Under the pieces are notes generated by a model. The model was given only the letters and a program-made list of their open reading frames with translations, had not been told where the DNA came from and did not search any database. Position numbers and translations under genes: made by a program. Positions 51,216 through 62,931 of a stretch of 64,000 nt of DNA are shown here, in pieces. This stretch comes from Oscillospiraceae bacterium (GTDB lineage Bacteria > Bacillota > Clostridia > Oscillospirales > Oscillospiraceae), in the NCBI GenBank assembly GCA_021201735.1, contig JAJQEJ010000019.1, positions 1 through 64,000 of the forward strand, read 5' to 3'. Numbering within the stretch: the first letter of the stretch is position 1; each line of letters opens with the position of its first letter.

Positions 51216-51572
51216 ATGAACAATGAAGAAAAAATCTTGGAAATGCTTGCCCAGATGCAGACCACCATGGTTACAAAAGATGAACTGGCGGCAATGGAAA
51301 AACGCATCCTTACCGAAACAAACCACAACATGAAAGTCCTGCTCGATTTGGAAGTCCAGCCCCGATTGAAGATACTTGCAGAAGGAATTATGGACATACA
51401 AGAAAAGCTTGTGCCCCGCTCTCGTGTGGATGAACTGGATGTCAATGGCAATCTAAAAATGCACAAAAAGGGCGGGGAAAAAATGTACAAAAGCGGCATC
51501 AGGGATTTGCCTTATCAAACAGGGTATTGTTGGCCTGCACTTTCTGCTTCATGTACTCCTTGCGCTCTTTGA
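51216..51572 (+). pseudogene. Small coiled-coil protein 2, truncated by an IS21 element
   Basis: The native part (residues 1 to about 75) opens NNEEKILEMLAQMQTTMVTKDEL, like coiled-coil protein 1, and continues as a long helix (…RLKILAEGIMDIQEKLVPRSRVDELD). From base 51440 the frame runs into the insertion element and ends after about 43 foreign residues. No continuation of the coiled coil is visible beyond the other end of the element, so the 3' part is lost. The N-terminal domain may still be made. Confidence 0.75.
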
Positions 51573-52296
51573 GCCTGTAACTGTCACCCTTGATATGGAT
51601 GACGGTACAGTGATGTAGGACACGGTCAAGGATGGCGGAAGCGATGGTGACATCGGCGAATATGTCGTTCCACTGAGAAAAGGTCTTGTTGCTTGTGAAG
51701 ATGGTAGAGGCTTTCTCATAGCGCCTTGCAATAAGCTGGAAGAAGAGATTTGCGCCCTGCATATCCATAGGCAGGTATCCAATCTCGTCAATGATGAGCA
51801 GTTTGTAACGAGCCAACGCCTTGAGTTTATCCGGCAGGCGGTTCTCGAAATGAGCCTTCTTCATCTGCTCAATGAGGGTATGGCAGTTGATGTAGTAAGT
51901 AGAAAACCTGTGGCTTGCCGTCTCCATGCCGAGGGCAGTGGCAAGATGGGTCTTGCCAACGCCTGGAGGGCCGAGAAAGACAATGTTCTCTGTGTTTTCT
52001 AGGAAGCGCATGGTTCGCAGTTCCTCAATCTGGCGTTCATCAATAGAGGGTTGGAAGCTGAAATCGAACTCAGCGAAGCCTTTTTTCATGGGGAAGCCGG
52101 ACATCTGAATTTGTTTTTCAATAGCCCTGCGGTTCTTGTTTTTTGCTTCCTCCGAAAAGATGTAGTCGAGGATTTCCACAACATTGGTGTTCTCCTTGAG
52201 CGCCCTTTCGAGATAGTTATCCAATATCTCAAGGGTGTTTTTCATTTTAAGACGCTCAAGATTTTCCCGCAGCCTTTCGTAGGTAAATTCGCTCAT
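51499..52296 (-). CDS. istB: IS21-family ATP-binding helper protein IstB
   Basis: 265 residues. AAA+ ATPase that remodels target DNA for the IstA transposase. Walker A GPPGVGKTHLATAL, Walker B LLIIDEIGYLP, DnaA-like arrangement. The start overlaps the istA stop by 4 bases, allowing coupled translation. Complete. Confidence 0.96.
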   Translation of the reverse strand: MSEFTYERLRENLERLKMKNTLEILDNYLERALKENTNVVEILDYIFSEEAKNKNRRAIEKQIQMSGFPMKKGFAEFDFSFQPSIDERQIEELRTMRFLENTENIVFLGPPGVGKTHLATALGMETASHRFSTYYINCHTLIEQMKKAHFENRLPDKLKALARYKLLIIDEIGYLPMDMQGANLFFQLIARRYEKASTIFTSNKTFSQWNDIFADVTIASAILDRVLHHCTVIHIKGDSYRLKERKEYMKQKVQANNTLFDKANP

Positions 52297-53495
52297 AAGG
52301 CCACCTCATCATAGACAGACAGATCGTGGATTTGAACGGGTTTGTCGAATATATCCGCATCATCCAACAGGGTGTTCTCTACATCGAAAGACTGCTTCAC
52401 CGTAAGCCGATGGTAATGAATGGGGTTGACCACCATGTCTTTCTTCTGGTAGGATATTCGATGGACGGCGACCTGCTTGCCTTCGTGGTAGACTGCGAGC
52501 GTGTTGCCCAAAGCCACGACTGCCACATCGCGTCCGGTGTATTCTGCTGGTACAGAATACTGATTACCGCCGTACGAGATGAGGCAGTCTTTTTGTACAC
52601 GCCGCAGATTAATTTTGTCGATGATGTATTCACGAATGAGAGGATTGAGCCTCTCTTTTTTCATGCGTTCAAAGGGTATTTCCCCAGTCGTGCCATGCTC
52701 CTTGGCATTGACCTTGTTACACCAAGCAATAGCTTGTCCGTTCAGGTCATCTAGGGATTTGTACTTGACACCCACCATAAAGTTGTCCCTGACATACCGC
52801 ACAGTGCGTTCTATCTTGCCTTTTGTCTGACCACGATACGGACGGCACAGAACCGGCTTGAAGCCGTAGAACCCGGCAAAATCTTCGAACTGGCGGTTTA
52901 GCGTGCTCTCCTCCTGTTTCATCAGCCGCTTGATGACAACCTGTTTCATATTGTCATACAGAATTTCTTCCGGATAGCCATTATAGTACCGGAAAGCGTT
53001 CACATGGCAGCGAATCAGTGTGTCGGTGCTCATATCCGTCACAAACTCGATGTATCTCATGCGGGAAAAACCCAGGATCATCAGGAAACAGTATAGTTTC
53101 TTTTCCTCGCCATTTTCGCGCACCCTGTAATCCTCGAAAAATGCCCAATCTACCTGTGCCTGAAGCCCAGGCATTGTCTCAAAACGCACTGTCGCCTGTT
53201 CGTTGAGCTGTTCCTTCTTCCCACGAACATAGTGCTTGACCACGCTGTAGCTGCCGTCGAAGCCCTGTTCCTTTAGCTTCTCCCATATTCGCATGGCACT
53301 GTATGGCGCTTCCTCCAGCCACATTGTTATCTGCGCTTTGTATGGGTCGAGTTTTGACGGCTTTGAGTCTGTCAGAACGTATTCCGGCCGGCTCTCGCTC
53401 TCGGCGTATTTCTTGGCCGTCCGCCGGTCAATGTTATACTTCCTCCCGATTTCGCTGTAGCTTAGTCCTTTTTGATGGTCTGTTCTGATTTCCAT
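52293..53495 (-). CDS. istA: IS21-family transposase IstA
   Basis: 400 residues. N-terminal HTH (GLSYSEIGRKYNIDRRTAKKYAE), RNase H-like DDE core with Asp in QVDWAFFEDY, Asp in ILYDNMKQVV and Glu in TKGKIERTVRYV, then the C-terminal beta domain. The ATG at 53495 is chosen from GAGGAG 8 nt upstream; an earlier ATG at 53513 lacks such a site. Confidence 0.95.
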   Translation of the reverse strand: MEIRTDHQKGLSYSEIGRKYNIDRRTAKKYAESESRPEYVLTDSKPSKLDPYKAQITMWLEEAPYSAMRIWEKLKEQGFDGSYSVVKHYVRGKKEQLNEQATVRFETMPGLQAQVDWAFFEDYRVRENGEEKKLYCFLMILGFSRMRYIEFVTDMSTDTLIRCHVNAFRYYNGYPEEILYDNMKQVVIKRLMKQEESTLNRQFEDFAGFYGFKPVLCRPYRGQTKGKIERTVRYVRDNFMVGVKYKSLDDLNGQAIAWCNKVNAKEHGTTGEIPFERMKKERLNPLIREYIIDKINLRRVQKDCLISYGGNQYSVPAEYTGRDVAVVALGNTLAVYHEGKQVAVHRISYQKKDMVVNPIHYHRLTVKQSFDVENTLLDDADIFDKPVQIHDLSVYDEVAL

Positions 53496-53633
53496 CCAGA
53501 TTGCTCCTCTCATTTTTTCACCCTTTCCGGTGTCCTGCCGCACCGGAAATAGTGTATCATTATGCTTTCCGAGAAGCCATATCTGTACATTTTTTAATTG
53601 CCACTTTTGTTCATTTTATCACTGACACTGACA

Positions 53634-53731
53634 TGTCATACCCACAAAAGGCTGTCTTAAAAATATTGAGGCAGATGACGGATTATGATATAATCAAAAC
53701 ACGCAGAAATATGCAGAAATGAGATGTTGCC
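53634..53731. other. Junction between IS21 element and next gene
   Basis: 98 bases with no continuation of the interrupted coiled-coil gene. It holds GATATAATC at about 53688-53696 as a possible -10 of the following gene. Confidence 0.4.
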
Positions 53732-55189
53732 ATGAAGAAGACTCTTTGTTCCATATTGTGCATAATGCTTGTTTTGATGCTGTCATCGTTTGTAAAGGTC
53801 AGTATAGACTCATCTGAAAATATGAATCCGTCAGCTTTTACTGAGCCCAACAACAACAAAGAGGAGAAACAGACATATAGCTCGCATCTTGAGGTCACAA
53901 TTGCAGAGCACTTTCCTTCCTTCACATTTGACATTGAAAAAGTCGGAGAGGAAGATGCTAAATGGAATGTTTATCAAATTTCTATCGCTTGCCCGGAGGA
54001 GCCTGATTTAATTTCGCAGACCTTCGAATTATCCAGCCCGTTCGAAAGCGGGTTGAGTGGAGTTCTATCCTTTGTCGATATTGATTGTGATGGATATCTC
54101 GATATAGAACTCGTAAATTATCGAGGGGCGGCTAACATTGGGCGGGAATATTATCGTTGGGATAGTCATTCAAATGAATATGAGGAGGCTCCTTTTTTTG
54201 AAATGGGAGGAGTTGACTATGAGATATTCTCCGATACAAGACAGATTATTGTAACTACGCACTCAAGTGCTTCGACGTACAGCAGAGTTCTATATCAGCT
54301 TATTGATGGTGAATATCTCGAACTACGCACTGAATATGCGCAGGTAATTGCTGATGACGATCAATATAAATTTGAAGTACATATCCTCAGTGAGCAAGGT
54401 GAACTATATTCTGAAACACTTTCACAGGAAGAATATTTCGGCACAAGGAATAACGATGAAAGCGGCCTCGTAAGGGAACATTTTTTGCGATTCGGCAGTG
54501 CTGAACCAAATGAGCGATTTGATGTGACCATCGAAACCTATGTCTGTGACAATGCAAATCCAGACGCAAACATATCCATTGAATATTTACAGATTGATGG
54601 GCTGCTAGATACAGAAAAGCAGCAGCGTATCAATCAGATACTATATGAACGTGTCCTTGATTTTCAAGGTGCATATGAGTGTAATCCTGATGACCTATAT
54701 GACCTTTCCGGATTGATGGAATATGATGTTGACGCAGAATATACCGCTTATGGAAGCATTCTCAGCGTCCGCTACAGTCTTTCTTTCTGGCATACGATAG
54801 CTGCGCATCCGTCGACATACTTGTATACAATGGTAATAGATGTAAGAACAGGTGAAGCACTTATACTTTCAGATCTCCTGATTCTAAATGATGCCTTTGA
54901 GGAAATGTTCAATGAGGACAAAATAGCCCTGACTAGGGTAGTAGAAGTGCCAACAGAGATATATGAGAATTTTTATGCTGAATTACATGACAGTATTATA
55001 GCTGGATATTCTAGTAAAAGCGGATTTTATCTCACAACGAATACAATCGGATTTGTCTTCGATGTGCCCCATGCTGTCGGAGATTATTGGACTTTTGAAA
55101 TTGCTTATGACGACATCTCCGATTTTCTTAACCCAGACGTTCAAGGGCTTATCGTGCATAAGTCCAGCGTCGATATTGGGAATTGCTGA
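53732..55189 (+). CDS. Secreted protein with C-terminal DUF3298/PdaC-like domain
   Basis: 485 residues, GC content visibly lower than the core genes. Signal peptide (1 to about 22), an N-terminal half with VDIDCDGYLDIELVNYRG (an Asp-rich FG-GAP/XAC2610-like loop, about 115-135) and a C-terminal half (about 260-480) with TAYGSILSVRYSLSFW…YTMVIDVRTGEALILSDLL, which matches the DUF4163/DUF3298 pattern seen in RsiV and PdaC. No catalytic domain is attached, so a sensing or binding role is more likely than deacetylation. Function unknown. Located just right of the IS21 element. Confidence 0.75.
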   Translation: MKKTLCSILCIMLVLMLSSFVKVSIDSSENMNPSAFTEPNNNKEEKQTYSSHLEVTIAEHFPSFTFDIEKVGEEDAKWNVYQISIACPEEPDLISQTFELSSPFESGLSGVLSFVDIDCDGYLDIELVNYRGAANIGREYYRWDSHSNEYEEAPFFEMGGVDYEIFSDTRQIIVTTHSSASTYSRVLYQLIDGEYLELRTEYAQVIADDDQYKFEVHILSEQGELYSETLSQEEYFGTRNNDESGLVREHFLRFGSAEPNERFDVTIETYVCDNANPDANISIEYLQIDGLLDTEKQQRINQILYERVLDFQGAYECNPDDLYDLSGLMEYDVDAEYTAYGSILSVRYSLSFWHTIAAHPSTYLYTMVIDVRTGEALILSDLLILNDAFEEMFNEDKIALTRVVEVPTEIYENFYAELHDSIIAGYSSKSGFYLTTNTIGFVFDVPHAVGDYWTFEIAYDDISDFLNPDVQGLIVHKSSVDIGNC

Positions 55190-55199
55190 AGACAAAGTG
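55186..55199 (+). repeat. Left 14-bp direct repeat flanking the HEPN module
   Basis: CTGAAGACAAAGTG overlaps the stop codon of the DUF3298-like gene; the identical string occurs at 56824-56837. Confidence 0.4.
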
Positions 55200-55218: not shown

Positions 55219-55347
55219 ATGCCGAGAAATTCTGTACTTGAGGCCGTATTGGTTAAAAATCCAAATTTCGATGATTTGGATGCTTTATCGATGGCGATCA
55301 CCTCTGCATCTTTTTTATTCGGTTATGCCAGTTATAAAAACCGTTAA
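55219..55347 (+). CDS. Possible 42-residue protein
   Basis: Encodes MPRNSVLEAVLVKNPNFDDL followed by 22 residues ending in GYASYKNR. No clear ribosome site (GGACGGGCGG), and its stop lies inside the terminator stem that follows. It may be the 3' remnant of a larger gene. Confidence 0.3.
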   Translation: MPRNSVLEAVLVKNPNFDDLDALSMAITSASFLFGYASYKNR

Positions 55348-55369
55348 CCGCTATTGGTTGGCGGTTTTT
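55336..55369 (+). terminator. Terminator upstream of the HEPN gene
   Basis: AAAAACCGTTAACC / GGTTGGCGGTTTTT stem with two G-U pairs and TTTTTATCTC. Confidence 0.8.
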
Positions 55370-55506
55370 ATCTCTTAATCGTATGCATTGACTTTTATGT
55401 CCTTATTTTGTTGAATTTCACTTCATTCAAATTTTAACAAAATATATTAAAAAGCAATACTCTTTGAGATATAATATACGTAAAATGCTTTAATATTGAG
55501 AATTAG

Positions 55507-56673
55507 GTGAGGAAAATTATACAGGAAAATTATAAAATTGAGATGCTATTAAAAATAGAAAATAAAGAAAGAAGTGTTTTTACTCAGTGCGATAAAATAG
55601 TAAATACATTAAATTTAAATGATAAATTGAATATATACCAAGACGGAACGCAATGCAAAATTCGACTTGGCAGAAATATTTTCGACTTTTTAATAATAAT
55701 GGAACCCAGCGGAGATATTTTCTCTCTCACAATTACAGCTGTTATGGATGCCCTTGATCATTTGGTTCTTTCAGGTATTCTCGAAGGTTTAACAAGTGTT
55801 GTTAGAGAGATCAAAATAACTATTTTAGAGAATTTTAAAAATTGTAGTTATGAAATACTTTGGGATGATGTCGGTATATATTATGCTACCATGGCGTTCC
55901 CAATGATCATTAAAATAGAAAACTTAATGAGGAAACTTATAACAAAGTTTATGCTCGTTCCAGCTGGCATAGAGTTTTTTAATAATATTCCTAGTGATAT
56001 AAATGTTCGTGATCGCAAAGATGATGATAGTGGATGCTTACATAACATAGATTTTATTGATTTGAGCAATTATATTTTTAAAGCACGCCCCCTAAAAAGT
56101 ACAGAAAGTTTAATAAGTATAATTAATAGTCTAAATGACAACACTTTACCAGAAAATATAAATTTAATGGACTATCAATATAACAGTTACTGGAATCGAT
56201 ATTTTAAAGATATTATTCAAAATTGTTCAGACACGGATGGCGAGGTAATAAAAAAACAGTGGGAGACTCTTTATAAGTTGCGTTGTAAAATTGCTCACAG
56301 TAGGTTTTTAAGTTTAGATGAATATGATAAAATTAAAGAGATTTGCCTCAAGTTAAATAATATTTTCACCTCTGCACTTGATAAATTAGGTAACATTGCT
56401 CTATCTTTAGAGAGCAAAGAATCTATATCAGAAGATATTTTTAAAGAAATTGATGGTGAGAACTGGTCAGATAAATTATATGGAATTATTGTTGAAAACT
56501 TTGATGACGAATTTACACTAAAAGAAATTTATGCTTATGAACCAATATTAAAGGCGCAATACCCGGATAATAATACAATTCAGGCATCAATCAGACGCAA
56601 CCTTCAAAAACTCAGAAATAATGGAAGAATTGTTTTTTTAGATAATGGAAGATATAAAATTAAAAAATCTTGA
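55507..56673 (+). CDS. HEPN (Swt1/ApeA-like) protein with DRP-type winged helix; candidate defence RNase
   Basis: 388 residues, the most AT-rich gene of the window. A central region (IENLMRKLITKFM, about 140-152) resembles the start of Swt1-type HEPN domains. WETLYKLRCKIAHSRFLSLDEYDKI (about 258-282) carries the Rx4H motif (Arg-Cys-Lys-Ile-Ala-His) of HEPN ribonucleases, with the usual Asn replaced by Cys. The C-terminus (about 335-388, EFTLKEIYAYEPILKAQYPDNNTIQASIRRNLQKLRNNGRI) matches the DRP/DpnI-type winged helix. An RNase guided or gated by a DNA-binding domain is inferred. The GTG start is uncertain: upstream GAGAATTAG is weak. Confidence 0.75.
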   Translation: MRKIIQENYKIEMLLKIENKERSVFTQCDKIVNTLNLNDKLNIYQDGTQCKIRLGRNIFDFLIIMEPSGDIFSLTITAVMDALDHLVLSGILEGLTSVVREIKITILENFKNCSYEILWDDVGIYYATMAFPMIIKIENLMRKLITKFMLVPAGIEFFNNIPSDINVRDRKDDDSGCLHNIDFIDLSNYIFKARPLKSTESLISIINSLNDNTLPENINLMDYQYNSYWNRYFKDIIQNCSDTDGEVIKKQWETLYKLRCKIAHSRFLSLDEYDKIKEICLKLNNIFTSALDKLGNIALSLESKESISEDIFKEIDGENWSDKLYGIIVENFDDEFTLKEIYAYEPILKAQYPDNNTIQASIRRNLQKLRNNGRIVFLDNGRYKIKKS

Positions 56674-57038
56674 CAATGCAGTTGCCACTTTGCTAATCAG
56701 AGTTATAATCACACTGTTACAGCAAAGCCCCCTACAAAGTGAAAATATAATTTTGTTTTTGGTGCGGTGTGGTCCACCATAATTAGGTAAATCCATGTAA
56801 CCACTGAGATTACAGGGCTCAGACTGAAGACAAAGTGTTCTTTTTATGAGGAGCTTTTCTAGAGAAACTGGCACATTTTCTTGCAAATTGACACTTTGTT
56901 AACAGGTCCCTTATTGTACGTTATCAATAGACTGGTGCGGACTGCTGTGATATAATCATAAAAGACTTACCAATACCTTAATGCATATTAAAAGCTGAAC
57001 GTCAGCTTTAGCGAAAAAAACGTGGAGGTATCATAGCT
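56674..57038. other. Gene-free stretch with degenerate IS-end-like repeats
   Basis: GTTGCCACTTTGCTAATCAG near 56684 and ATTGACACTTTGTTAACAG near 56886 are similar to each other and to ATTGCCACTTTTGTTCA in the right end of the IS21 element. This may be a relic of a related element. No reading frame is convincing. The right CTGAAGACAAAGTG lies here (56824). Confidence 0.35.
56824..56837 (+). repeat. Right 14-bp direct repeat flanking the HEPN module
   Basis: Identical to the string at 55186-55199. The two bracket 1.6 kb that contains the HEPN gene and its upstream terminator. Confidence 0.4.
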
Positions 57039-57431
57039 ATGGCACTTGATCTTGTGGGATGGAATGTTGTTTTGGATTCCGATCATGCGGAAAATCTGTC
57101 TGCATTTTACGAAAGGTTGCTGGGCTGGACACGGTTTAAAGGCGAAGAATATACAGTTCTGGTAAATATAGAACAAAAAGGACTTCCGACTTGGATTACC
57201 TTTCAACAAGTAGATGATTATGTACCGCCCGTTTGGCCTGCGACACTGGATAAGCAACAGCAGATGGCGCATTTAGACTTTCATGTCGCGGATGTGGAAG
57301 ACGGCGTGAAGTATGCCCTGTCGTGTGGCGCAACCATGTCTGAAATCCAATTCGATGATCGTTGGCGCGTAATGCTTGACCCTGCGGGACATCCGTTCTG
57401 CATACTGCCTACAGTCACGCCCTGGATGTAA
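57039..57431 (+). CDS. VOC (glyoxalase/bleomycin-resistance) superfamily protein
   Basis: 130 residues with two beta-alpha-beta-beta-beta units: LDLVGWNVVLDSDHAENLSAFYERLLGW and MAHLDFHVADVEDGVKYALSCGA, ending RVMLDPAGHPFCILP. The pattern DPAGHPFCI is common in VOC proteins annotated as glyoxalase-like. Metal ligands are not certain (His in HLDFHV, the late Asp/His). Substrate unknown. GGAGG 10 nt upstream. Confidence 0.9.
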   Translation: MALDLVGWNVVLDSDHAENLSAFYERLLGWTRFKGEEYTVLVNIEQKGLPTWITFQQVDDYVPPVWPATLDKQQQMAHLDFHVADVEDGVKYALSCGATMSEIQFDDRWRVMLDPAGHPFCILPTVTPWM

Positions 57432-57537
57432 GAAATTTAAGTTTGCCAAATTCCAGTTTATCGGCTTTCGTAGCAAACGGCTGATTAATTGGCCATTTGC
57501 TGACATGTACAAATTAACCAGTTGCACCAAACGCAAA

Positions 57538-57592
57538 TAATCCGAACCCTTCACGACAGATTGTTCCTGTTGGTGAAGGGTTCGGATTTTTG
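57538..57592 (+). terminator. Terminator between VOC and Cna-B genes
   Basis: A 16-bp stem (AATCCGAACCCTTCAC and complement), loop of about 19 nt, followed by TTTTTG on the plus strand. The genes are convergent. Confidence 0.8.
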
Positions 57593-57612
57593 TTGTATCT
57601 GAAAATGGCGTT

Positions 57613-59442: not shown

Positions 59443-62400
59443 ATGCGGACAAAAAAATATACCAGTTGGATTTGTATCTCTCTGGCAATCATCATGCTGA
59501 TTGGTTGTTTTCCTGTGCAAATCGCGGCGGCAAGCGGGACTACGCATCTCATTAAATTTAAAAGCGGCACCGCAGAAGACGGGGTGACAAGCAAGGTGGT
59601 GTATACCAGTGAAGTAACCTATGGCGATCTGATTGGCGCGCCCACCACCGACGTGCTGTGGTCATTTGAATGGCCGGCCGACAAAGAAATCACCGGCTGG
59701 TATTTAGAGGGGGATGCCGCCAAAACCGCTTTGGATTTCAGCACGCTCACCTGTACCGGGGATATGACCTTTCTCCCCATTTACGGGGACTGCACAACCT
59801 GTTACGTGTTCTTCGCGTCGGATGGGCTGAGCACCACCATGAAAAAAGTGCCAAAGGGTGACCGGGTCAGCGAGCCCGCCGACCCGGTCAGGGAGGGATA
59901 TACCTTCCAATATTGGTCTCTCGACGGCACAACTGCGTTTTCATTTACGACACCCATCACCTCCCACACGACACTGCGCGCGGTATGGGAGGCGCAGGAA
60001 GTATCCTTTAAGGTCATGTTTTATGTGGAGAAGGCCGATATGGACGCCGATGGCACCCCCGGCGATTTTTCAGAGTATATTTTTGCCGAAACCCATGTCC
60101 TCAAGGGAACCGCAGGGGAAAACACGAACCTTACGAAGGAAACGCTCTCGTCCTACGGGCTTGACGCATACTTTAACGGAACAACAACAGCAGATACAGG
60201 GCTAAAATATATGGAGTTTCAGGAGGCCTTTAATAAAGAGATCGCCGGTGATGGTACCACGGTCATAAGCGCCTTTTTGCTGCGCAAGACTTACGAAATC
60301 TGCTATGATATTAACAACCATTATAGCACTTATTTAATCACAGACACCCGCTATGGCATGATCATTGACGGAGAGACCTATACATCCGTCGACAATCCCG
60401 TCTATACCACCAAGGTGAAGATAGGCAACCAGTTTAATGGCCCAAACACAGAAACGGAGTTCTTTGCCCCGACCCCAAATGATGACTACAGAGTCCTGCA
60501 CTGGTATACTGATCCCAACATGGCCGGGCATATCTGGTTTTATAGTACGACCCTTTTCCCGACCACCGGTTTGTCACCTAACTTTGTCAGCGCGGACGGA
60601 CAAACAGAAGCCTATACATTTGGGGCATATTGGGGCAATGGCGCGATAGCGATCCCAACGCGGGAATGGTATGAGCCGCTTGCGTCGGATTCGGGCGGGA
60701 TCACCATAAATATTCCTGATGATACCACCACATACCATGCGGATATTGCGGGGCAGACCTTTCAGTACAACCCGAAGTATGACTTTACTTCTTATGGTGC
60801 GGAATCATTAAAAGAGGCCCGTGCCGGATTTAGCCCATTGTGCGTATCCCCTTATTATTCCGGCTATGCTACCGCACAGGACTTTATCTATCAGAGCAAC
60901 GACGAGGACGATGTGGAATTTTACACTTACCCGACTGCTGACACATATAAAGTTCTAAGCTTATTCTATGCACGCAACAGCTATGACCTGATTTTTGATG
61001 TGCAGACCAGCGAAACGCAGACGACGGACTATTCGTCAAAATCCATCAAATATGAGGCCCCGCTGGAAGCGCAAAAACCGGACGATCCCGTGCGTTCCGG
61101 CTATGAATTCCTGGGCTGGTATGAAAATGTGGATTTTGAGACGCCGTACGATTTCTCAACCGGTACCATGCCCGCAAGCAATTTGACGCTATTTGCCAAG
61201 TGGCGTGAAATCGTGCCGGAATACAAGGTGAATTTTTACGACTATTACGGCGGTACGATCCTCAACACAGAGACCGTGAGAGAGGGGGAAATGACGCCGG
61301 AACAGGCATATTACGTTTTGGGAACAAGCTACGCGCTCGGTACGTTTTCCGGCTGGCGGTATCATATCGAGGGTGCCATTGGTGTCTCAAGCGAATTCTC
61401 CTTCACACTGCCTGTTTTTGAGGATATGGACGTCTACGCGAGCTGGAATCCAGGCTATTTTAACGTCACATATCTCTTAGGCAGCGGCTCAGGTACCACT
61501 CCTGTCGACAGCGACAATTACGCGCCGGGCACCTCTGCGCGGGTCGCGAGCGGCACGGGCATCACCGGCAGCGGCGGGAGCACATTTATCGGCTGGAAGG
61601 ATCAGGACGGCAACAGCTATGACCCCGACAGCCTCGCGGCCATAACCCGCGATCTGGTTCTGACGGCGCAGTATAAAACCTCGGGCGGTGGCGGTACGTC
61701 AACCACAACCTATAAAGTTACCTATTCCGCCAACGGCGGCAGCGGGACGCTGACCGACCCGAACAGCCCCTATCACTCCGGCGCGACCGTAACCGTCCTT
61801 TCTCCAGGGAGCAACATCACGCCACAGAGCGGATATGCGTTTGTACGCTGGAACACGGCAGCGGACGGAACCGGAACCGATTATCAGGCGGATGATACCT
61901 TTATCATTACGAAAAACACCACGCTGTATGCCCAGTGGAAAGAGGCCGAGGACTGCTATATCTACTATGACGCGAACGGTGGCACAGGGACTCTTGCCGA
62001 TGGGAATAACCCCTATCAGACCGGTGACAGCGTGACCATCCTCACGCCCACCGGGTCCATCAGCAGGAGCGGCTACGGCTTTCTCAGCTGGAACACCCAG
62101 TCTGACGGCAGCGGCACCAGCTATGCGGCATACAGCACCCTCGTCATACAGGCGGACACGACCCTCTATGCCCAGTGGCAAAGGTATAACGGCGGTTCGG
62201 ACGGGGGCATCACAGACATCATTGACCCCATGCCCCCGCTGGGAGAGTGGGAGCTGAATCTGGACGACCATTATGCCTATCTCATTGGATACCCGGATGA
62301 CACGGTGCGACCCAATGCCAATGTCTCCAGAGAGGAATCGGCGACGATTTTCTTCCGCCTTCTGACGGACGACACCAGAGACGAGCTTTTGAGCAAGTCG

Positions 62401-62931
62401 AACAGCTTCGGCGATGTTGCGTCAAATCGCTGGTCCAACACCGCAATCTCCACGCTTGCCGCCGCCGGGGTTCTATCCGGACGTCCGGACGGCACCTTTG
62501 ACCCCGCCGGGTATATCACCCGCGCGGAATTCGCAACCCTGGCCGCCGGATTCGATGAGCGGGATATTGACATTACGCTCACCTATTCGGATACCGCCGG
62601 GCATTGGGCGGAGGAAGCGATCAGCAGGGCCACCGCGCTCGGCTGGATTCAGGGCAGGTCGGACGGCACCTTTGGCCCAGATGAATACATCACGCGCGCA
62701 GAGGTGGCAACCTTTGTGAACCGCATGCTCTTGCGGCTCATTGAAGATGAATCGGCCTTCCTGCCGGGCATGAAGGTCTGGCCCGACAACAGCGACACGA
62801 GCCAGTGGTACTATCTGGTGATGCAGGAGGCGACCAATTCTCATCTCTTCGAGCGGGTTTCGGACGATAGCAACTATGAAATTTGGCTTTCGTTGATTGA
62901 CGATCCGGATTGGCTCCAGTATGAGGTGTAA
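59443..62931 (+). CDS. Large SLH-domain surface protein with InlB-type repeats
   Basis: 1162 residues. Signal sequence with an internal LIGC, which could be a lipobox, then AAAS (about 25-31), a normal signal peptidase site. At least five InlB B/Flg_new-type repeats follow (e.g. VREGYTFQYW, DPVRSGYEFLGWYENVDFETPYDF, and two late ones ending LYAQW), with a unique region at about 200-520. Three C-terminal SLH repeats carry SREE, TRAE and TRAE motifs. GGAGGGTGA site. Likely S-layer-associated adhesin or structural protein. The late repeats closely match those of the signal-less protein at 1927-4452. Confidence 0.92.
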   Translation: MRTKKYTSWICISLAIIMLIGCFPVQIAAASGTTHLIKFKSGTAEDGVTSKVVYTSEVTYGDLIGAPTTDVLWSFEWPADKEITGWYLEGDAAKTALDFSTLTCTGDMTFLPIYGDCTTCYVFFASDGLSTTMKKVPKGDRVSEPADPVREGYTFQYWSLDGTTAFSFTTPITSHTTLRAVWEAQEVSFKVMFYVEKADMDADGTPGDFSEYIFAETHVLKGTAGENTNLTKETLSSYGLDAYFNGTTTADTGLKYMEFQEAFNKEIAGDGTTVISAFLLRKTYEICYDINNHYSTYLITDTRYGMIIDGETYTSVDNPVYTTKVKIGNQFNGPNTETEFFAPTPNDDYRVLHWYTDPNMAGHIWFYSTTLFPTTGLSPNFVSADGQTEAYTFGAYWGNGAIAIPTREWYEPLASDSGGITINIPDDTTTYHADIAGQTFQYNPKYDFTSYGAESLKEARAGFSPLCVSPYYSGYATAQDFIYQSNDEDDVEFYTYPTADTYKVLSLFYARNSYDLIFDVQTSETQTTDYSSKSIKYEAPLEAQKPDDPVRSGYEFLGWYENVDFETPYDFSTGTMPASNLTLFAKWREIVPEYKVNFYDYYGGTILNTETVREGEMTPEQAYYVLGTSYALGTFSGWRYHIEGAIGVSSEFSFTLPVFEDMDVYASWNPGYFNVTYLLGSGSGTTPVDSDNYAPGTSARVASGTGITGSGGSTFIGWKDQDGNSYDPDSLAAITRDLVLTAQYKTSGGGGTSTTTYKVTYSANGGSGTLTDPNSPYHSGATVTVLSPGSNITPQSGYAFVRWNTAADGTGTDYQADDTFIITKNTTLYAQWKEAEDCYIYYDANGGTGTLADGNNPYQTGDSVTILTPTGSISRSGYGFLSWNTQSDGSGTSYAAYSTLVIQADTTLYAQWQRYNGGSDGGITDIIDPMPPLGEWELNLDDHYAYLIGYPDDTVRPNANVSREESATIFFRLLTDDTRDELLSKSNSFGDVASNRWSNTAISTLAAAGVLSGRPDGTFDPAGYITRAEFATLAAGFDERDIDITLTYSDTAGHWAEEAISRATALGWIQGRSDGTFGPDEYITRAEVATFVNRMLLRLIEDESAFLPGMKVWPDNSDTSQWYYLVMQEATNSHLFERVSDDSNYEIWLSLIDDPDWLQYEV

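Follow-up and report, generated by a model that had tools for sequence, protein, structure and literature searches.

In the window (i.e. the whole stretch of 64,000 nucleotides that was analysed), one open reading frame encodes a protein whose chain begins with an alpha/beta domain, continues with a HEPN core and ends in a DpnI-type winged helix (Table 1). A search of its own genome found the frame in one copy and without internal stop, and the alignment with homologues suggests that the true start is either the GTG or lies a few codons 3' of it. With a GC content of 28.9%, compared to 55.8% for the whole window, and with the next lowest 1.17-kb stretch outside the gene at 39.6% in a scan of the window, the frame is clearly lower in GC than its neighbours, as the initial annotation had claimed, and the foreign origin proposed there is supported; the gene was probably acquired horizontally. 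The promoter-like site, a consensus match only, lies 31 bp 5' of the GTG and suggests that the gene may be transcribed from a promoter of its own.

Table 1. Features of the fusion gene, its protein and its flanks (positions in the window).
Feature	Position	Strand	Basis or detail
IS21-family element	51439-53634		IstB 51499-52296 (-), IstA 52293-53543 (-)
Terminator-like hairpin, between 5' neighbour gene and fusion gene	55346..55366	+	Pattern scan
Promoter-like site TTAAAA-17-TATAAT	55447..55475	+	Pattern scan, 10/12 matches
HEPN-DpnI_C fusion gene	55507..56673	+	GTG start, 388 aa; ORF list, own-genome search, alignment with L044-L046
N-terminal alpha/beta domain, residues 1-120	55507..55866	+	Secondary structure of the AlphaFold2 model
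HEPN core, residues 121-300	55867..56406	+	50-sequence family, HEPN_Swt1 profile alignment in relatives, helical model
ENLMR, residues 138-142, first conserved HEPN helix	55918..55932	+	E138 and R142 invariant
RCKIAH, residues 259-264, Rx4H motif	56281..56298	+	R259 and H264 invariant
DpnI_C winged-helix domain, residues 318-386	56458..56664	+	Pfam, PDB sequence match, VIA-align to 4esj
Recognition-helix motif SIRRNLQ, residues 361-367	56587..56607	+	Ungapped alignment to DpnI (KIRQQLQ)
Deleted remnant of multicopy IS	56820..56909	.	Directly 3' of the gene; left end CAGACTGAAGACAAAGTG + 75-bp right-end fragment

The gene stands between that of an XAC2610-family protein, which ends at 55189, and one at 57039 that is glyoxalase-like (by eye). 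No partner gene adjoins it in this neighbourhood, and among its surroundings in the window no gene of BREX or of another defence system was recognised. Of the accessory island in which it had been placed, what stands is the IS21-family element upstream and the other IS remnants nearby, but not the company of a second defence gene adjoining it. The arms of the IS21-family element are inverted (51439-51505 / 53568-53634), and its end is repeated on at least seven other contigs, which means that the element is multicopy. The remnant directly downstream of the gene has a 96% match to an IS end that lies beside a transposase-like reading frame on another contig (C43), and the 13-mer TGAAGACAAAGTG has 20 copies in the genome, versus 0 for its reversed control.

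The HEPN gene lies between two copies of TGAAGACAAAGTG (55187-55199 and 56825-56837) that point the same way; the upstream copy overlaps a stop codon and is without an IS body. Eleven other copies that were examined read CAGAC-TGAAGACAAAGTG-GTTGAAATC and lie mostly at contig ends and directly 3' of palindromic hairpins, a pattern that looks as if an IS were targeting terminator hairpins. Further downstream, a repeat of ~75-150 bp (57448-57598, with a hairpin at 57536-57591) recurs with 78-80% identity on at least four other contigs, and the frame at 59443-62931 encodes a protein of 1162 residues with InlB/Flg_new-like beta-repeat segments and C-terminal SLH-like repeats (by eye), a probable surface protein. 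In an empty-site comparison, the one same-genus genome used (77% complete) matched only a 55-bp repeat.

The C-terminal part of the protein is settled as a DpnI winged helix, both in fold and in family. Pfam DpnI_C (PF17726) matches residues 328-384 with an E-value of 1.9e-15 and 57.2 bits (gathering cut-off 23 bits), phmmer against the PDB matches DpnI (4esj) ungapped over 70 residues, and the AlphaFold2 model (built with 43 relatives; mean pLDDT 85) superposes on residues 180-254 of DpnI with a Z of 12.7 and an rmsd of 2.3 over 75 aligned residues (VIA-align), which confirms the DRP/DpnI-type winged helix that had been read from the sequence at the outset. The Pfam and PADLOC matches of the query are, in fact, confined to residues 328-385, and neither of the two recognised a DNase family elsewhere in the chain. 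That the protein is a DpnI-like restriction enzyme was rejected, as the winged helix alone matches. When the whole protein was compared by Foldseek, no match reached E <= 0.001; DpnI came first (2.4e-3), again over the winged helix, and the N-terminal domain has ferredoxin-like structural matches with Z up to 8.7, which are not decisive. Matches to a phage tail chaperone (Pfam, E 0.009) and to an integrin (PDB, E 0.06) were treated as chance.

The ungapped alignment places K229, R231, Q232 and Q235 of DpnI at S361, R363, R364 and Q367, i.e. KIRQQLQ of DpnI reads SIRRNLQ in the query. The same motif is present in all four fusions that were found (the window gene and those of three other Clostridia, L044, L045 and L046), with R231 and Q235 kept as R363 and Q367, K229 replaced by serine and Q232 by arginine, while KIRQQLQ is present in every DpnI-like enzyme of the same phylum/family whose motif was recovered. 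The key residues of the winged helix are reported to be K229, R231 and Q235 in DpnI and K197, R199 and Q200 in HHPV4I (PMC10101028), and K229 and R231 of DpnI are reported as key also in PMC4117772. Replacement of the K229 equivalent of HHPV4I by alanine kept the m6A dependence and loosened the sequence context, and the activity of the R and Q mutants was lost (PMC10101028). With K229 and Q232 replaced, the residue set of a DpnI-type Gm6ATC reader is incomplete in all four fusions, and because of this change of motif Gm6ATC specificity is not to be assumed. Within the fusion clade the winged helix (55-74% identity) is about as conserved as the HEPN core (61-74%), which points to selection on both. 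As judged from the sequence, the winged helix probably binds DNA, its specificity has probably shifted from that of DpnI, and it may not be a methylation reader.

The query alone matched no HEPN model in sequence searches: with Pfam HEPN_Swt1 (PF18731; gathering cut-off 27.5 bits) there was no match at E up to 1, and none in its own genome. A relative found by tblastn in a Nostoc plasmid is, however, annotated as 'HEPN domain-containing protein'. Starting from four sequences, the collection grew to 26 loci from viral contigs plus 39 from genome contigs, with the stretches ENLMRK and TKFML serving as baits for collecting relatives and the RxxxxH region left out. In an alignment of 50 sequences E138, R142, R259 and H264 are invariant (50/50); because the bait peptides did not contain the RxxxxH region, its conservation is not built in, and that of ENLMR is so in part, since this stretch was among the baits. 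HEPN_Swt1 matches 38 of the 50 relatives at E <= 0.01 and, where coordinates are given, the best matches fall on the core (~ residues 118-260 of L056; the RxxxxH region of L044, a weak match of 17.5 bits). The Swt1-like HEPN motif RCKIAH (Rx4H), with which the initial annotation began, is thereby upheld.

Structurally, the core is predicted to be helical (pLDDT 84). The top rows of VIA-align with the core alone include HEPN-MNT (8xeh, Z 6.4), Csm6 (6tug, Z 6.2) and MntA-HepT (6m6u, Z 5.9), all below the noise line of the tool for helical bundles, for which, as it warns, such Z may mean just a common arrangement. With the HEPN part alone, Foldseek returned no significant match, and in the PDB the HEPN profile found only chance matches to coiled coils. 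By homology and motif, the core is a HEPN domain, with which the predicted fold agrees weakly.

The family to which the protein belongs follows a plan of a fixed N-terminal domain and HEPN core with a variable C-terminus. Clustering of the C-termini (n = 50) gave a second HEPN-like domain in 33 cases, a REase-like domain in 6, DpnI_C in 4 and single cases in 7. Many of the second HEPN-like domains have RNxxVH-like motifs, and there are weak HepT-like/DUF4145 matches. The REase-like C-termini were not confirmed by Pfam above cut-off, their E-x-K motif being kept in two (L020 and L069) and lost in four (L022, L028, L079 and L080). The PADLOC model PDC-M34B matches 47 of the 50 relatives at E <= 0.01, and the query not at E up to 10; PDC candidates were found through their embedding in known systems, and most are without validation (PMC12988326).

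In a maximum-likelihood tree of the N-terminal and HEPN region (49 rows) the four fusions form one clade (100/100), which is joined by a starred branch (95/85) with six Bacillota members, mostly with a second HEPN-like domain. The DpnI winged helix occupies the position that the second HEPN-like domain has in most relatives, and the simplest reading would be that it replaced that domain once. In another branch (L050, L058 and L061) a winged-helix-like end aligns to the DpnI_C set with an hhalign probability of 55% and E 1.2e-4 (one comparison), which is suggestive of a separate acquisition. These three and L075 consist of the HEPN core, a second HEPN-like domain and a winged-helix-like third domain, which may be a distant DpnI_C relative. 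The HEPN-DpnI_C fusion itself is rare, with four members found, and it was absent from the viral contigs and the phage collection searched; three relatives searched for in E. coli genomes were not found.

The wider family is clearly linked to defence and to prophages. The Nostoc relative (L002) sits between brxC and pglX, another (L066) lies beside type IIG methylase/restriction genes and GajA, and yet another (L081) has a helicase and a type IIG enzyme as neighbours, while in Persicobacter (plasmid CP012855, 4805-6900; L003) a relative is found directly 3' of what is, by eye, the gene of a Dam-type DNA adenine methylase. That plasmid is phage-like, with terminase-like and capsid-region-like genes (by eye). 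The 111 neighbours at 22 viral loci include 13 repressors, 10 integrases, 9 CII-like and 6 Cox-like genes. A PADLOC tally of neighbours matched 188 models, versus 86 in a same-sized control that itself held a strong PtuA (Septu) match; this tally is suggestive but crude, and the defence link is therefore argued from the named loci.

The four fusions, on the other hand, are solo genes with unrelated and mostly housekeeping flanks (by eye): ketol-acid reductoisomerase and sodium symporter genes near L044, a fumarate-hydratase-like gene and a dehydrogenase near L045, and ABC transporter and cell-wall genes near L046. No conserved adjacent antitoxin and no shared neighbour were found in the four loci. 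The defence-island enrichment expected of homologues in the initial annotation thus holds for the wider family (BREX, type IIG/Gabija and prophage loci), but not for the fusions. As for the methylases of the hosts, a D12 (Dam-type) methylase was not found in the genome of the window, nor in two of the three other fusion hosts, the third (that of L044) having one; the genome of the window has two N6/N4-type methylases of unassigned specificity.

HEPN defence candidates, BREX HEPN effectors, giant HEPN-wHTH proteins and winged helix-DNase fusions are already known. With PDC-M34B / Swt1-like HEPN proteins (PF18731) the query has the N-terminal region and the HEPN core in common, but it falls below both models and ends in DpnI_C, where a second HEPN-like domain is usual. 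With DpnI and the wH-fusion endonucleases (type IIM / type IV) it shares the C-terminal winged helix, whereas their effector is PD-(D/E)XK, HNH, GIY-YIG or PLD and that of the query a HEPN RNase-type domain. Winged helices of the DpnI type are readers of m6A that occur in fusions with several kinds of nuclease, usually with no methylase next to them, and the partners of the known ones are domains that cut DNA or NTPase domains (PMC11037411); neither 'HEPN' nor 'RNase' occurs in the main text of that paper. HEPN Rx4H proteins such as Tha are infection-triggered RNases (PMC11087260). Tha (from a S. aureus prophage) has the idea of a HEPN Rx4H RNase with a separate sensing region in common with the query, and its prophage setting with the wider family, but it is activated by a tail protein and no DNA-binding domain is described for it (PMC11087260), the likeness drawn here being one of idea and setting. 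Stand-alone HEPN effectors in BREX and BREX-related loci have been described (PMC12839542), which is the setting of the Nostoc relative, whereas the window gene has no recognised BREX genes nearby. A HEPN domain of the Swt1/Abi2 class with a C-terminal wHTH recognising invading DNA was proposed by Anantharaman et al. in 2013 (PMC3710099). Giant HEPN-helicase-Vsr-wHTH proteins of the MTES_1575 type, however, combine a helicase and a DNase in many domains, whereas the window protein is a minimal HEPN + DpnI_C. This minimal pairing was absent from the open-licence literature examined, and an earlier mention elsewhere is possible.

The explanation that we favour, with a probability of roughly 0.45, is that of a single-gene abortive-infection HEPN RNase, in which recognition of foreign, probably modified DNA by the winged helix allows the HEPN dimer active site to form. 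The protein would be kept inactive in the uninfected cell, and the winged helix would bind foreign DNA by certain of its features, of which modified adenines outside the Gm6ATC context are the most likely. This binding would bring two chains together or rearrange them into the HEPN dimer active site, which would then cleave RNA (tRNA, mRNA or rRNA) and halt both cell and phage; the lack of a second HEPN-like domain in the clade would fit an active dimer made from two chains. The sequence suggests that, as proposed in the initial annotation, one protein encoded by a single gene may couple DNA sensing to RNA cleavage in defence. It is a more tentative, and on the whole rather doubtful, proposition that the winged helix with its altered recognition helix detects modified foreign DNA in the form of non-GATC or relaxed-context m6A and so switches on the HEPN RNase.

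For the RNase speak the intact RxxxxH, invariant in 50/50, and the HEPN_Swt1 matches in 38/50. For a modification-dependent trigger speak the fusion loci without a conserved antitoxin (if the unmodified DNA of the host were read, the host would be poisoned) and the own genome without a D12 methylase. The position of the fusions outside defence islands, the weak fold match (best Z 6.4) and the rarity of the fusion count against the favoured explanation, which is further weakened by the replacement of K229 and Q232, by the D12 methylase in the host of L044 and by the query itself being below the HEPN_Swt1 and PDC-M34B thresholds.

The main rival to DNA sensing is that the fast-evolving N-terminal domain of a HEPN abortive-infection RNase senses a phage protein or another signal, with the winged helix only holding the protein on DNA or making protein contacts. 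Within the fusion clade, conservation is lowest in the N-terminal domain (35-64% identity, versus 61-74% for the HEPN core), as expected in an arms race, and most relatives have no DNA-reading C-terminus, which means that the family works without one; moreover, the DNA-contact motif differs from that of DpnI, and the trigger of Tha-1 is a tail protein (PMC11087260). This explanation is nevertheless unlikely, with a winged helix that equals the HEPN core in conservation and has kept R363 and Q367, and with a second branch that also seems to be winged-helix-ended, which suggests that DNA reading is useful. It is less probable still that the protein is a self-regulating toxin, in which the winged helix acts as a repressor at its own promoter or keeps the HEPN domain attached to the chromosome, in a TA-like manner, without a phage trigger. 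The promoter-like site upstream and the solo gene would agree with this, as would the common occurrence of HEPN toxins in toxin-antitoxin systems (PMC3710099), but an adjacent antitoxin gene is not conserved in the four fusions, and a repeat search found no palindrome in the promoter region besides the terminator-like hairpin.

A single gene of strongly atypical GC among IS remnants could also be a foreign gene in decay that has lost its function in this host. This is distinctly improbable, as the frame is full-length, all invariant residues are kept, and the HEPN core and winged helix are about equally conserved with respect to the relatives. DpnI-type wH domains occur mostly in modification-dependent restriction enzymes, most of which are without an adjacent methylase (PMC11037411), and the protein could accordingly bind modified sites and in this way restrict DNA or plasmids that enter the cell, with HEPN as a dimerising scaffold instead of an RNase. 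However, no DNase domain was recognised in the chain and the whole family has kept the RNase motif, which makes such restriction very improbable.

If the more tentative proposition (i.e. a HEPN RNase switched on by modified foreign DNA) is true, the cell would respond to modified DNA by cleaving RNA and shutting itself down, and not by the cutting of DNA. A DpnI-type winged helix joined to an RNase would extend type IV restriction to cell-wide RNA cleavage. The protein would also provide a system for the switching of a HEPN dimer by DNA binding, simple in that it has one chain with two mutable sites (H264 and R363) and natural relatives with different C-terminal modules.
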